From: a virus
Reading direction: 5' to 3' (one strand)
Length of the DNA stretch: 25,922 bases
IMG/VR virus record: IMGVR_UViG_3300044858_003183
Span: 1-25,922 of that record
The position numbers and the translations under genes were made by a program. The notes beneath the pieces were generated by a model. It was not told where the DNA came from, searched no databases, and saw only the letters and a program-made list of their open reading frames with translations. Of the stretch, positions 17,376-21,902 are shown in pieces. Each line of letters starts with the position of its first letter. Positions within the stretch are counted from its first letter, which is position 1.

Positions 17376-18506
17376 GTCGAGGGCCTCCATGTCTCCGTCT
17401 GAGGTAGACGCGGAGGCCGTGACGGTCCGGACACGCCGCGCATAATCGAGAGGCATCGAGCCTCCGAGAAACATCCAGTCGTCGGACTCGGACGCGATAC
17501 GGTCCGCGAGTCCTCGAGAGACAGCCTCCGCCGCACCGTAGACGGACCCATCGCCGAGAGCCTCGACGGTCGTCCCGCGGTCCGCGGCAATCTCCGCGAG
17601 CATGACGCCCGCCATCTCATCGACGCGCCTCTGGAGGCCCGCGATGTAATCCGCATCGTCGACGGATGCGCGCTTCTTCGGGGTCTGACTCGAGACGACC
17701 TCGACCGTCTGACCCTGCTCCGCGTCGCGGTAGAGGGTCGTGATGACGCCGACGGAGCCTAGCTGAGCGAGAGGAGACGCGACGATCTCGTCCGCCGCCG
17801 CCGCGACCCAGAGCGCCGCGGACGCCGCCATCCCGGAGACGTAGGCGACGACGTAAATCCCCGCGTCGCGAGCTCGAGCGATAGCGCGTCGAGTCTCCCG
17901 GACTCCCGAGACGTAGCCGCCCGGGGAGTCGACGTGGAGGACGACCGTCCGCTCGCCCTGAAGCTGAGCGCGTCGGAGCTCCATCCGGGCCCCGTAGTAA
18001 TCCATCGGGTAGAGAGGGCCCTCGACATGCACGACCGAGAGCGCGCCCTCGATGTGTCGTCGAGGAGCGCCCGACATGAGCGCGCCGACGTGACTCGGCT
18101 CGACAGCCATCGCCGAGACGCCCGGTTGGACCCGAGCGCCCGTGTCGCCGCCCTGGTCGAGCTCCCGAGCGCGTCGGATGAGGTAGGCCTGCTGGAGACC
18201 CTCGACCCAGTCCTCGCCCGGGTCGCCGCCCCAGAGGAGCCACGCGACATAGCCGGGAGACTCGGAGCCCGGGACGTCGTCGACGCCCTCCTCCCAGTCG
18301 CCCTCATGTCGAGCGAACCATGCCGGAGCCTCGACCGTCGCCCATTCCTCCGACTGAGGCTCGCCCGCCGCGATGCTATTCGCTCGACGGATGGTCTCCG
18401 GATTAGGCTCGCCGCTCTTCCCGGCCTGATGTAGCTCGACGCCCAGACGCGCCGCGTCGCGGACCGCCTCGGGAGGAGTGAGCTCTTCCTGAGTGAGGAG
18501 AGGCAT
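16977..18506 (-). CDS. S49-family head maturation protease fused to scaffold (509 aa)
   Basis: Residues 150-345 form a SppA/lambda C-like S49 peptidase, with the oxyanion-type motif HVDSPGG (191-197) and likely nucleophile S229 in SGMAASAALWVA. The likely catalytic Lys is K277 or K278 in SSQTPKKRAS. Residues 1-110 are an extra domain with TPPEAVRDAARLGVEL, WFARHEGDWEEG and PGYVAWLLWGGDPGEDW, a module I recall from other phage head proteins but cannot name. Residues 378-509 are a coiled-coil scaffold that can also be made alone. The enzyme would cut scaffold and perhaps portal or capsid termini inside the procapsid. The ATG at 18506 overlaps the portal stop as TAATG. Confidence 0.82.
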   Translation of the reverse strand: MPLLTQEELTPPEAVRDAARLGVELHQAGKSGEPNPETIRRANSIAAGEPQSEEWATVEAPAWFARHEGDWEEGVDDVPGSESPGYVAWLLWGGDPGEDWVEGLQQAYLIRRARELDQGGDTGARVQPGVSAMAVEPSHVGALMSGAPRRHIEGALSVVHVEGPLYPMDYYGARMELRRAQLQGERTVVLHVDSPGGYVSGVRETRRAIARARDAGIYVVAYVSGMAASAALWVAAAADEIVASPLAQLGSVGVITTLYRDAEQGQTVEVVSSQTPKKRASVDDADYIAGLQRRVDEMAGVMLAEIAADRGTTVEALGDGSVYGAAEAVSRGLADRIASESDDWMFLGGSMPLDYARRVRTVTASASTSDGDMEALDMSEEKKALDAQVEALKTELDAVRAQLEAAATSAATATAELQKRDAERMVETHVSAGRIPQARRGEWVERAVRLGVEEVGAMLSDLSPIVAVASPVGHGGAAADVETVKMNPREAEVARANDMLARFRGLKGA

Positions 18507-19888
18507 TAGACGCCCTCGGGGATAGGTGAAGATGGAGGAGAGAGAGGAGCCGGACGAAGAGTCCGACCGAGACGCTCACGCTCGGAGCGGACCTCCGCCG
18601 CGCGGGTCGGAGCCGGGAGCTCGAGCGCCTGACGTATAGCCCGCTCGTCCTCTGCGCTCGGAGTAATGACCCCAGCGGAGAGGAGCGAGACGACGTCCGA
18701 GACCTTCTCGACCCACAAGTTGCTCCGGATGCCCGAGTATGTCAGGCGCGGGAGCTCGTCGAGCGGGATCGGCCCGATGTTCGCGAGGACAATCGCGCGG
18801 AGGTATCCCGCGAGGCCCTCGGAGACCCACTGACAGAGGTCGCCCGCCATCTGCGCCGCGAGCTCCGCGTGAGTCTGCGCCGTCGCGTAGGCGCCCGAGG
18901 AGGTAGCGCTCCCGAGGGCGAGATGCTGAGCATAGAACGCCTGGAGGATTTCTCGGCTGAGAGCTTCGATGGTCGCGTTGAGGCCCTCGACCGAGGATGG
19001 AGCCGAGAACGTCAGCGTCGCCCACGATGGGAGGACGAGCGCGCTCTCCTCATGGGAGGTATATCGTCGGAGCGTCTCGAGGAGCTCGTCGCGAGCCGCC
19101 TCATACTCCGTCGCGCTCGGAGCCGTCCCGTTTATACGGGCGAGCCGCTCCTCGTCGATGGAGATGGTCGGAGTCGGGACCGCGTAGCGCTGGGAGAGGA
19201 CCTGTCGGAGCTGCGCCGCTCGACGATAGTCCTGAGCGAGCGGCTCGACCTGACGGAGGAGCCCGACGCCCTCGACGCCCTCGGAGAGCGAGGGCCAGAC
19301 GAGATGGACGAGCCGCTCGTAAGGGATGCGGACATCGCCGACGCTTGACAGACCGCCGGGCTCCCGGAGCCACTGGTCGACCGCGACGAGGCGTCGCCCC
19401 TCATATACCCATCGCCTAATGCTCGACTGGTCGCGAGGCTCGAGGTCGATGTAGGTCGTCCCTTGGTATGGATAGGCGACCATCTCCGCGAGGCTGAACC
19501 CGTAAAGCGCGCCGACGAGGAGCTGACGGAGACGGGCCTCCCAGCTAGGGAGACTCAGGACCCGACCATCCCACTCGATGACCGGAGCCGAGTAGCCGCC
19601 GAGACCGAGCGTCCGCCGGATGACCTCCGCCGCCGCCTCCGACGCCGCAGAGTCCGGAGCCGGAGCGACGTCCCACGTCGCGGAGGTCGCGAGCCCGAGG
19701 AGGGCCTGAGCTCCTACCGCACACGGAGCGCAGCGCATCGCCTGACGGTACGCCGCGATGCGAGGAGCGACCGCGACTAGGCGCGTGTTCGTCTCCCCGT
19801 CATTGACCGGGAGAGACTGAGTCCCGACGCCCTGACCTGGTATGGCCTCGGGAGCGGAGTAGCTCTGGACTCGGGTCGTGATAGCCAC
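18506..19888 (-). CDS. Portal protein, DUF935 / Mu gp29-like
   Basis: Residues such as WEARLRQLLVGALYGFSLAEMV, RIPYERLVHLVWP and LSREILQAFYAQHLALGSATSSGAYATAQTHAELA match the gp29-like (DUF935) portal family, which forms the dodecameric DNA gate at the capsid vertex. The C-terminal 50 residues are Arg/Pro-rich. The start is unsure. I prefer the GTG at 19888 (MAITTRVQSYSAPEAIPG). A GTG at 19924 gives 12 more residues, but it lies right behind the 12-bp RNA stem and adds an atypical N-terminus. Neither has a clear ribosome binding site, which is odd for a head gene and suggests that the structured leader takes part in its expression. Confidence 0.8.
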   Translation of the reverse strand: MAITTRVQSYSAPEAIPGQGVGTQSLPVNDGETNTRLVAVAPRIAAYRQAMRCAPCAVGAQALLGLATSATWDVAPAPDSAASEAAAEVIRRTLGLGGYSAPVIEWDGRVLSLPSWEARLRQLLVGALYGFSLAEMVAYPYQGTTYIDLEPRDQSSIRRWVYEGRRLVAVDQWLREPGGLSSVGDVRIPYERLVHLVWPSLSEGVEGVGLLRQVEPLAQDYRRAAQLRQVLSQRYAVPTPTISIDEERLARINGTAPSATEYEAARDELLETLRRYTSHEESALVLPSWATLTFSAPSSVEGLNATIEALSREILQAFYAQHLALGSATSSGAYATAQTHAELAAQMAGDLCQWVSEGLAGYLRAIVLANIGPIPLDELPRLTYSGIRSNLWVEKVSDVVSLLSAGVITPSAEDERAIRQALELPAPTRAAEVRSERERLGRTLRPAPLSPPSSPIPEGV

Positions 19889-19925
19889 GGGCCAGAGACT
19901 AGCACATACCGTCAGAAGATGCACA

Positions 19926-20024
19926 CCCCGTCAGGACACGCACGCCGGAGCGTGCTCGAGGCGTCCGACGCGACCGTCTATCGATGGTCGGGCCAGAGCT
20001 CCGCGGGCCTCGGTCCTGACGGGG
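19926..20024 (-). ncRNA. Structured RNA domain II, closed by a perfect 12-bp stem
   Basis: On the minus strand CCCCGTCAGGAC (20024-20013) pairs perfectly with GTCCTGACGGGG (19937-19926). Nested directly inside is CGAGGC (20012-20007) with GCCTCG (19962-19957), capped by a CGACC/GGTCG hairpin (19990-19986 with 19975-19971). A second hairpin GCACGC-TCCG-GCGTGC sits at 19955-19940. The domain ends two bases before a possible portal start, so it may be a leader element or part of one longer RNA with the domain upstream. No known RNA family is recognised. Confidence 0.5.
19984..20018 (-). repeat. 35-base direct repeat, copy 1
   Basis: This copy differs from the one at 20165-20199 at two of 35 positions and lies 181 bases away in the same orientation. 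The conserved core on the plus strand is GGGCCAGAGCTCCGCG followed by GCCTCGGTCCTG. The two copies flank the first structured RNA domain, and this one forms the 5' part of the second. They could be protein-binding sites such as terminase recognition repeats, or a duplicated RNA module. Confidence 0.75.
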
Positions 20025-20036
20025 GATGCAAAGAGT

Positions 20037-20156
20037 AGCGCGTCTCAATGGGGCCACGGACCGAAGTCCGCGGAAAACGGGCCGCCTCGCTCGTCATCAT
20101 CGACGAGCTCTGCGCTTCAATGGGGCCGCGGACTAGCCGCAGAGGGGAGACGCGCT
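20037..20156 (-). ncRNA. Structured RNA domain I, cloverleaf-like, UUCG-capped
   Basis: On the minus strand AGCGCGTCTC (20156-20147) pairs perfectly with GAGACGCGCT (20046-20037). This closes a junction with three arms: CTCTGCG/CGCAGAG (20144-20138 with 20114-20108), CTCGTC-GATGAT-GACGAG (20107-20090) and CCGCGGAC-TTCG-GTCCGTGG (20073-20054). The last arm has a UUCG tetraloop and one G-U pair that would be A-C on the other strand, so the minus strand is the likely RNA. Two copies of a GGCCCCATTGA motif lie in the loop of arm one and beside arm three. No T-run or obvious known family is seen. Confidence 0.55.
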
Positions 20157-20164
20157 GTCAAAGA

Positions 20165-20199
20165 ATGGCCGGGCCAGAGCTCCGCGAGCCTCGGTCCTG
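20165..20199 (-). repeat. 35-base direct repeat, copy 2
   Basis: This partner of the copy at 19984-20018 is 33 of 35 identical. It lies between the second micro-ORF and structured RNA domain I. Unlike copy 1, its right-hand flank (GCGGGAACC on the plus strand) has no distant complementary arm that I can find, so only copy 1 is built into a long stem. Confidence 0.75.
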
Positions 20200-20210
20200 C
20201 GGGAACCGAA

Positions 20211-20276
20211 TCAGATGATGCTGTACAGGCCGCCGTGACAGGCGATGAGGACGATCTTCACGAAGATGGCAGTCAC
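20211..20276 (-). CDS. Micro-ORF 2, hydrophobic 21-residue peptide
   Basis: A GTG at 20276 has GGAGG six bases upstream and overlaps the stop of micro-ORF 1 as GTGA, the junction style of real genes in this window. The peptide begins MTAIFVKIVLIACHGG and ends LYSII, mostly hydrophobic with one Lys, one His and one Cys. It could span or lie on the inner membrane, or serve as a leader peptide whose translation affects the downstream RNA. It is too short for family assignment. Confidence 0.5.
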   Translation of the reverse strand: MTAIFVKIVLIACHGGLYSII

Positions 20277-20341
20277 AGGGAACCTCCGCAGCTATGGGCG
20301 AGGAACTTCGCGATGATGAGGAGCGACGTGAACGAGACCAT
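20273..20341 (-). CDS. Micro-ORF 1, hydrophobic 22-residue peptide
   Basis: An ATG at 20341 is preceded by GGAGG five bases upstream, one of the best ribosome binding sites in the window. The peptide begins MVSFTSLLIIAKFLAHSC and ends GGSL, with a hydrophobic core and one Lys. Its end resembles that of micro-ORF 2 (LAHSCGG against LIACHGG), hinting at a duplicated unit. Such coupled micro-ORFs could be leader peptides, small toxins or membrane peptides. No function can be assigned from sequence. Confidence 0.5.
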   Translation of the reverse strand: MVSFTSLLIIAKFLAHSCGGSL

Positions 20342-20468
20342 GCGACCCTCCAGAAGTTGCGGGGTCGGGCTCTCTCGACGCGCCGCCGCGACCTATTCGC
20401 GACACTCACCCCGAGAGATTGACTCGCCAGACCTCGGGCGAATACGACCGAGGACGACCCCGACCCCG

Positions 20469-20496
20469 ACCCTACCACGCCCCTCGACCGCGTCAA
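20469..20496 (-). promoter_or_regulatory. Candidate promoter between terL and portal
   Basis: TTGACG (20496-20491) and TAGGGT (20474-20469) are 16 bases apart, just after the terL stop. The -35 box is close to consensus and the -10 box is moderate. A transcript from here would have a leader of about 120 bases, then the two micro-ORFs, the structured RNA domains and the head genes. GTGGTAGGGT recurs before the adaptor gene at 14394-14385. Confidence 0.4.
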
Positions 20497-20498
20497 GT

Positions 20499-21902
20499 CT
20501 AGCGCTCATCGAGCGCGCTCGATGGAGCTCGACGCGGAGGAGTTGGTCGAGCATCCCGCTCTCGAGGCGCGTCCGCGAGATACCAGAGGACCTCCCGGAC
20601 CGCGTAGCGGAGGCAGTCCGCGTGATGGTCATGCGTCCCGTCTTTGCTCGGTCGACCCGGAGCCCGCTCATCCCAGCGGTAACCCGTCATCGCCCGAGCG
20701 AGCGTCCGCCTCGAGGCCGGAGCCCGGAGGCCCGCATCGTAGAGGGTCCGGTCGACCGTCAGAGCGCCGCGCTCCAGCGCCAAGTTTACCCGCGTACACC
20801 CCGAGACGATGTCCCGCCGCTCGGGGTCACGCTCGACCCGCGGGAGGATGCCGAGCCCTCGAGGAGGAGCGAGGGCGACGAGGTCGAGGTCCGCGACTCC
20901 GGTCTGAGCGGAGCGCGCCGCGCCCGCCGGGTCCGCGACGATGGAGTCGACCGGGAGATGTCGAGACCCCGCGGTCCAGAGGCGACGCGGGACGAGCTCC
21001 GCGCCGAGACGCGCGAGGAAGTCCGGGAGGGTCTCATCGTCCGGAGCCCACTCTCGGAGGACATGCCATCGACCGCGCGTGAGCTCGACGAGGAGGAGCG
21101 CGCAGGGAAACCGGAGACCGAAGTCGAGAGCGAGCATCGTCCGCATCGACCCGAGGTCGACGGCCTCCGAGGTCACGCATCGCTCCGGAGCCCATGCGTA
21201 GAAGACGGACCCGACCGGAGGGAGAGGGCGATTCTCGACGAGCGCCGCGTAGTCTCGCGAGCTCAGGGTCTCCCGCATCCGGTCGAGCCATCCCTCCCCG
21301 AGATGTCGCGCGTTCTCCGCGCTCTGGGGTAGGTATGCCGCGCCGCCGATATCCCGCGTCCGGTCGACCCACCATGCTGGCTCGACCGGGATGCCACACG
21401 TCACGACCAGAGGTCGCCGCTCGACGCCCTCCGTATCCCGGACCGGGACGCGAGCTCGAGAGCGAGCCACGTCGAGGACGTCGGAGCGGAGGACCTGACA
21501 CTCGTCGATAAGGACGCCGTGAGCGTTGAGGCCCTCGATAGGCGACGAGCCGGGCCCGCTGTTCTGGGGCGTGTCGAGATGAGCGAGGAGGAGTCGCGAG
21601 CCGTTCGGCCAGACGAAAGCCTGCTCAGACGCCGCGAAGACGACCGGGCTCCCCGCGAGGAGCCCGTGCAAGTGCGGGAGGTGAACGTCCCTCAGCCGTC
21701 GAAAGGTATCCATACCGACGACGACGAGCGCGCCCGGTCGCGTGTCACAGAGCATGACCGCGAGCGCGCAGAGGGCGAGGCTCTTCCCCGACCCCAAACC
21801 CCCGCGGACCGCCGCGACATCCCTCGACCATGACCCCGAGAGACCTCCGCCGATAAATCGACGCTGCCACGGGAGGAGGGCTAGCTCGCCGATGCGAGGC
21901 AT
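20499..21902 (-). CDS. terL: Terminase large subunit (467 aa)
   Basis: The motor of DNA packaging. An N-terminal ATPase has Walker A GGLGSGKS (residues 34-41) and Walker B VLID-E (130-134, with catalytic E134). A C-terminal RNase H-like nuclease has acidic residues D260 in LALDFG, D324 in IVADPAG and D429 in DHHADCLRYA. All key residues are present, so the enzyme should be active. At 467 residues it is of usual length. The ATG at 21902 lies three bases after the small subunit stop. A 600-base gap with structured RNA follows instead of the portal gene directly. The headful or cohesive-end mechanism cannot be told from the sequence. Confidence 0.92.
   Translation of the reverse strand: MPRIGELALLPWQRRFIGGGLSGSWSRDVAAVRGGLGSGKSLALCALAVMLCDTRPGALVVVGMDTFRRLRDVHLPHLHGLLAGSPVVFAASEQAFVWPNGSRLLLAHLDTPQNSGPGSSPIEGLNAHGVLIDECQVLRSDVLDVARSRARVPVRDTEGVERRPLVVTCGIPVEPAWWVDRTRDIGGAAYLPQSAENARHLGEGWLDRMRETLSSRDYAALVENRPLPPVGSVFYAWAPERCVTSEAVDLGSMRTMLALDFGLRFPCALLLVELTRGRWHVLREWAPDDETLPDFLARLGAELVPRRLWTAGSRHLPVDSIVADPAGAARSAQTGVADLDLVALAPPRGLGILPRVERDPERRDIVSGCTRVNLALERGALTVDRTLYDAGLRAPASRRTLARAMTGYRWDERAPGRPSKDGTHDHHADCLRYAVREVLWYLADAPRERDARPTPPRRAPSSALDER

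Follow-up and report, generated by a model that had tools for sequence, protein, structure and literature searches.

The window, that is, the whole stretch of DNA analysed here, is a viral record of 25,922 bp and an incomplete contig, in which terL, terS, and the portal, protease and capsid genes were identified via PHROGs. It also encodes a RecT-like annealing protein (768-1616). The genes terL (20499-21902; PHROG terminase large subunit) and portal (listed ORF 18506-19924; PHROG and Pfam Portal_Mu) are both located on the minus strand and are separated by a gap of 574 bp, in agreement with the original prediction of an interval of about 600 bases. That prediction placed two consecutive multibranched RNA domains in the gap, and their closing stems proved exact in position: in domain 1, AGCGCGTCTC (20156-20147) pairs with GAGACGCGCT (20046-20037), while in domain 2, CCCCGTCAGGAC (20024-20013) pairs with GTCCTGACGGGG (19937-19926), and the UUCG and UCCG hairpins are likewise present. 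Folding analysis showed that the segment 20210-19880 (331 nt) beats every dinucleotide shuffle (z = -3.76), as do domain 1 alone (z = -3.69) and domain 2 (module D) alone (z = -5.64), so that the structure indeed exceeds what composition explains. Both domains are thus structured, but they do not form a like pair, domain 1 being a CRISPR cassette found in some relatives and domain 2 a covarying RNA found in nearly all of them. Two direct repeats had been overlooked, one of 35 nt (20165-20199 and 19984-20018) and one of 22 nt (20112-20133 and 20040-20061), the latter corresponding to the 3' part common to both CRISPR repeats.

Scans of IMG/VR for relatives yielded 45 terL loci and 45 portal loci (loci outside the window are designated by L numbers). 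In these relatives the terL-portal gap can be as short as 17 bp or as long as 1282 bp, though the adjoining proteins can exceed 97% identity. In the direction of transcription, the gap is ordered as P, module A, optional B1 and B2, optional module C (equivalent to domain 1), module D and a TAGNNT box. The 574-bp gap is therefore a mosaic of exchangeable modules, consisting of a probable promoter, a structured RNA, two tiny ORFs, a mini-array and a portal-proximal RNA, and the RecT-like protein is a plausible driver of recombination between modules. Whole ORFs are also found in some gaps, several having been inserted in that of L010 (3300-4583) and one of about 110 amino acids, membrane-protein-like, occurring in those of L071, L070 and L015, which supports a general insertion hotspot. 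No tRNA or tmRNA was found in the region, nor any Rfam match at gathering score, and blastn of the region against INPHARED returned no match. The terL relatives in INPHARED are only about 24% identical, and annotated isolates were consequently of no help; terL had no match in GTDB genomes, so that no prophage or host was identified. WhiB, taken as an actinobacterial host marker, was absent in the eight relatives checked.

Directly after the terL stop, a consensus reading points to a probable promoter P (TTGACG-16 nt-TAGGGT; 20469-20496, minus strand), and the same block occurs in most relatives; a sigma-70 scan gave no promoter at its threshold, P included. It is followed by module A (20358-20466, minus strand), an RNA that forms a three-way junction, in which the invariant stretch GCGAGTCA separates hairpins 1 and 2; its folding likewise beats every shuffle (z = -4.52). 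In an alignment of 11 sequences, hairpin 2 had 93% of cells paired and 8 of its 20 pairs changed on both sides, while the changes in step seen in the closing stem were judged by eye only, the MAFFT alignment slipping there. Two tiny ORFs come next: B1 (MVSFTSLLIIAKFLAHSCGGSL; 20273-20341, minus strand), which lies after GGAGGG and shares its frame and its CGGSL C-terminus with 8 distinct relatives, and B2 (VTAIFVKIVLIACHGGLYSII; 20211-20276, minus strand), which overlaps the B1 stop, is kept in 10 distinct relatives and, in the IMG/VR search, was confined to the present phage group. The two peptides (20341-20211, minus strand) are hydrophobic, with 22 and 21 amino acids and the C-termini HSCGGSL and ACHGGLYSII, have good ribosome-binding sites, and are optional in relatives and restricted to the phage group. 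Between B and C lies D' (20165-20199, minus strand), which duplicates the 5' half of module D in truncated form with 94% identity and forms the 35-nt direct repeat. This element does not occur in relatives in which C follows A or B without a break, and it is a recombination scar. A further structured RNA, module A0, was observed after promoter P and ahead of module A in the gaps of L053 (4608-4780), L063 (4512-4690), L010 and L008; it ends in a hairpin resembling an intrinsic terminator and reached no Rfam family.

Domain 1 (20151-20042, minus strand) is a CRISPR repeat, a 35-nt spacer and a second repeat. The first repeat, R1 (20114-20151, minus strand), is type I-G like and comprises the hairpin CUGCGG-CUAGU-CCGCGG, CCCC and the handle AUUGAAGC; the spacer GCAGAGCTCGTCGATGATGACGAGCGAGGCGGCCC (20079-20113, minus strand) varies among relatives while the repeats are kept; and the terminal repeat, R2 (20042-20078, minus strand), has the hairpin CCGCGGAC-UUCG-GUCCGUGG and the altered handle AUUGAGAC. 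A covariance model built from 40 bacterial repeats, with no phage sequence, was scored at every position of the window and recovered R1 with 29.1 bits (20147-20114; E = 1.2e-6) and R2 with 27.7 bits (20078-20042; E = 3.4e-6), the next-best match in the 26 kb having 8.2 bits (E = 2). The two repeats are in the same orientation and both belong, by this model, to a cellular CRISPR repeat family. In accordance with these results, the two best matches of Rfam RF01330 (CRISPR-DR16) were the domain 1 repeats, over the full length 1-37, with 21.0 bits for R1 and 20.1 bits for R2, under the gathering score of 35. The R1 of the window is more degenerate than that of relatives, since the same bacterial model gave 42.4-42.5 bits for R1 of L019, L027, L035, L042, L043 and L008, which is nearer to the roughly 48-55 bits of long arrays on other viral contigs.

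These results also changed the reading of the predicted architecture of domain 1. The stems of its three proposed hairpins exist, yet the three-hairpin form is not the minimum-energy fold, in which, CRISPR repeats being palindromic, the arms of the two repeats pair with one another, and the middle hairpin lies inside the spacer and is not conserved, being absent in L035. The bracketing inverted repeat formed by the closing stem (5' arm 20147-20156, 3' arm 20037-20046, minus strand) is near-invariant in four cassettes, with the outermost pair lost in L035. Covariation is uninformative in a stem that varies so little, and it neither supported nor refuted the predicted pairing.

A pattern scan of GTDB showed that the repeat core GGCCCCATTGARRC occurs twice at CRISPR spacing in at least 115 stretches of bacterial or archaeal genomes. 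Most of the stretches listed are long arrays in which hairpin stems vary and the core is constant, and the nearest repeats among the matches listed are from Planctomycetota. PADLOC placed Cas7g and Cas56g beside an array of the same repeat family in Singulisphaera sp. GP187 (L125), and a Cas4-Cas1g fusion beside another in a Pirellulaceae genome (L105), so that the family was assigned to type I-G by proxy of these neighbouring cas genes. Type I-G repeats have 36 nt, and Csb2 cuts them 4 nt 3' of the hairpin base, leaving an 8-nt handle (PMC9638904); the modal spacer of the type I-G system of Bifidobacterium lactis is 35 nt (PMC12915315). The arrangement CCGCGG-CCCC-AUUGAAGC of R1, followed by a 35-nt spacer, fits this published layout. 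The handle of R1 is canonical in every cassette and R2 ends in AUUGAGAC in all of them, unlike the last repeats of bacterial arrays, which end in AGC or AAC. The ending GAGAC is also found in the second repeat of L212 and L215, which are apparently unrelated viral contigs. PADLOC detected no cas or defence protein among ten window proteins, the contig being incomplete, and no type I-G leader was recognised in front of the array, the gap starting with the promoter-like P. Short arrays of the same repeat family, with one or two spacers, were also observed at L212 (820-960), L215 (110-240), L203 (540-700; also L207) and L208 (2110-2290); in L212 and L203 a terminator-like hairpin follows directly, while in L215 an SSB-like gene lies immediately downstream of the array.

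Among relatives whose neighbouring genes are 77-99% identical, some have this cassette with a different spacer, some have one repeat only, and others lack it altogether. Three unrelated spacers occur at this one locus, one of them in two variants, and they define the groups of the window, of L050 and L008, and of L035, L063 and L043, with essentially identical repeats. The L050 and L008 spacers match except for the first 12 nt; a synonymous-only difference between them (AEYERATIRART and SEYERATIRART) was considered and rejected, as just three informative changes are too weak. Spacer length is 35-36 nt across cassettes in groups with 98% and 82% identical terL, and L058, L056, L033 and L006 have a single repeat of the R2 type at the same locus; many other relatives have no repeat there.

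The window spacer had no convincing protospacer in INPHARED phages, PLSDB plasmids, IMG/VR or related contigs, and the other cassette spacers had no above-chance target in INPHARED, IMG/VR or the relatives. Searching IMG/VR with exact and codon-degenerate protospacer patterns recovered the arrays themselves only, and bacterial spacers of the same repeat family showed no real excess of matches to the phage group over reversed spacers. The complement of the window spacer (20113-20079, minus strand) reads AASLVIIDELC, a Walker B-like motif found in 2 of 2277 bacterial spacers, and the best plasmid match of the spacer was IstB (E = 0.02). An ATPase gene as target is a possible hint from a motif spotted post hoc, and is taken as a lead only. 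Regarding structure, 96% of GC-matched bacterial spacers fold less well than that of the window, and some spacers form 7-bp hairpins. Spacer hairpins were seen in the window, L050 and L203, and 4-10% of bacterial spacers fold equally well; as the L035, L212 and L215 spacers are unremarkable in folding, a conserved spacer hairpin was not established.

Repeat identity, orientation and spacer turnover were observed directly, and they are consistent with a mini-array that serves as a crRNA source, borrowing the type I-G Cascade of the host against a rival element, a reading to which we give an even chance of being correct. The mini-array would be transcribed as part of the late operon, with P as the probable promoter, and the Cas5-Cas6 fusion of the host (Csb2) would cut each repeat four nt past the hairpin, thereby freeing one crRNA composed of the AUUGAAGC handle, the 35-nt guide and the R2 hairpin. 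This crRNA may then be loaded into the host Cascade and aimed at a rival phage or another mobile element, in what would amount to a form of superinfection exclusion. The altered handle of R2 would be harmless, because no spacer comes after it. What favours a guide is that the R1 handle and the spacer length are kept while the spacers turn over.

The counter-defence role in the original prediction is a near fit for domain 1, either as a CRISPR mini-array or as a CRISPR-repeat mimic, and the second of these is the main competitor. As an RNA anti-CRISPR similar to Racr, the cassette would offer repeats that host Csb2 binds and cuts, so that type I-G Cascade is titrated or misassembled and the spacer is filler. 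A decoy is favoured by the relatives L058, L056, L033 and L006, which retain one repeat as solitary repeat units do, by the 7-bp hairpins of some spacers, and by the failure to find a protospacer in the databases searched. Moreover, in RacrIF1 the stem-loop is important while the 8-nt handle is dispensable (PMC10651486), and the single repeat retained here is the one with the altered handle. However, in most carriers both repeats are present, the R1 handle is intact and the spacer measures 35 nt, all of which is needless for a decoy; spacers are replaced between close relatives, and neither L035 nor the mini-arrays of L212 and L215 have the spacer hairpin. We therefore consider the decoy a possible explanation, with clearly less than an even chance. 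The mini-array and the RNA anti-CRISPR states may also interconvert, with the locus displaying both.

That the cassette is a decaying or passenger fragment of a host array, with no present function, appears unlikely. It would account for the lower score of the window R1 compared with that of relatives and for module borders that resemble short-homology recombination scars such as D' in a phage that carries RecT. Nevertheless, the cassette recurs in the groups with 98% and 82% identical terL with its hairpins, R1 handle and 35-36-nt spacer kept, which argues against decay, since decay would break them. The proposal of a single structural RNA, in which a closing stem surrounds three hairpins and the CRISPR resemblance is incidental, is largely refuted and very improbable, because its strong folding (z = -3.69), perfect 10-bp bracket and middle-segment hairpins in the window and L050 are set against two independent matches to the bacterial repeat model (E of about 1e-6), a spacing of one CRISPR unit, and a middle segment that changes in sequence and does not conserve its hairpin.

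Module D (domain 2; 19920-20030, minus strand) consists of a closing stem, a nested helix and two hairpins, and is present in nearly all relatives, being missing from L034, L037 and L038; in L034, terL and portal nearly touch (17-bp gap). Across 20 sequences, 96.6% of cells were paired, and 9 of 37 pairs had both sides changed compared with 3.8 expected, a count as high being reached in 0 of 500 shuffles, while sliding the partners destroyed the pairing. The sample of relatives is small and includes close ones, so that cells are not independent events, yet the four helices, of varied composition, agree in covariation. The closing stem shows U-A to C-G and G-C to A-U changes in eight sequences. 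The compensatory changes anticipated for the domain 2 arms were thus found. Neither module D nor module A had an Rfam match at gathering score.

A -10-like TAGNNT box recurs across relatives 6-7 nt before the portal start codon, and in the window the candidate box TAGTCT (19896-19901, minus strand) lies 7 nt before a GTG at 19888. Judging from this box, the probable start of portal is 19888, without a leader, instead of the listed ORF start at 19924, which would place module D at the tail of the upstream transcript. From that position, our best guess for domain 2 is a structured RNA distinct from domain 1 that acts in cis, serving for processing, stability or insulation at the junction of the terL and portal transcripts. 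Of the roles suggested for the region in the original prediction, portal-gene leader or processing element suits domain 2, while no evidence supported a packaging RNA. The location of domain 2 between terminase and portal, its presence in nearly all relatives and its strong covariation would suit a packaging RNA or a portal leader of the riboswitch kind, but we find such a role doubtful, given that the domain is absent in L034, with its 17-bp gap, L037 and L038, and that the portal mRNA excludes it if the TAGNNT box is a promoter. The packaging RNA of phi29 is a structured RNA linked to packaging genes; domain 2 shows no similarity to it via Rfam, and the kind of position and the architecture differ.

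Taken more broadly, the terL-portal gap might be a dedicated hotspot for RNA cassettes, whose modules are swapped between near-identical phages as weapons or counter-defences. It would contain mini-CRISPR units whose guides can be exchanged, mimics made of one repeat, no fewer than three structured RNAs not yet described (A, A0 and D) and tiny hydrophobic peptides. This joint proposal is speculative and, as a whole, rather improbable. If it were true, these RNAs would represent novel kinds of RNA-based agent, acting in anti-defence or between phages. In any case, modules A and D are two covarying RNA families without an Rfam entry, and the locus points to a site of RNA cassette exchange that would repay mining for further counter-defence RNAs. 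Although mini-arrays and RNA anti-CRISPRs of phages have been described before, how they arise can seldom be seen. Here, full-array, single-repeat and empty forms occur at one locus, with the guide changing between close relatives, and the locus thus offers a natural series for the conversion of a mini-array into an RNA anti-CRISPR or the reverse. The effector concerned has been described as the last of type I to be characterised (PMC9638904).

Compared with Rfam RF01330 (CRISPR-DR16), the phage repeats have the core GGCCCCAUUGA instead of GGCCUCAUUGA. The cassette resembles the Racr and solitary repeat units (Camara-Wilpert et al., 2023; PMC10651486) in being a phage-encoded, intergenic repeat mimic in the sense of transcription. 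A single repeat with no second one within 100 bp was found in L058, L056, L033 and L006 only, whereas the window has two repeats and a full-length spacer, and the main text of the Racr paper contains neither 'I-G' nor 'I-U'. Virus-borne mini-arrays directed against rival elements have been shown for the archaeal viruses SPV1 and SPV2 (Medvedeva et al., 2019; PMC6858448). The present mini-array differs from these and from their phage counterparts in that no cell-like leader was seen, no protospacer was found and the terminal repeat has a phage-specific GAGAC end, and also in that type I-G repeats are carried by a tailed phage inside a late packaging operon. It is like them in having 1-2 spacers between repeats of a cellular family, in its intergenic location with no cas gene among the proteins scanned, and in spacers that differ at the same position between close relatives.
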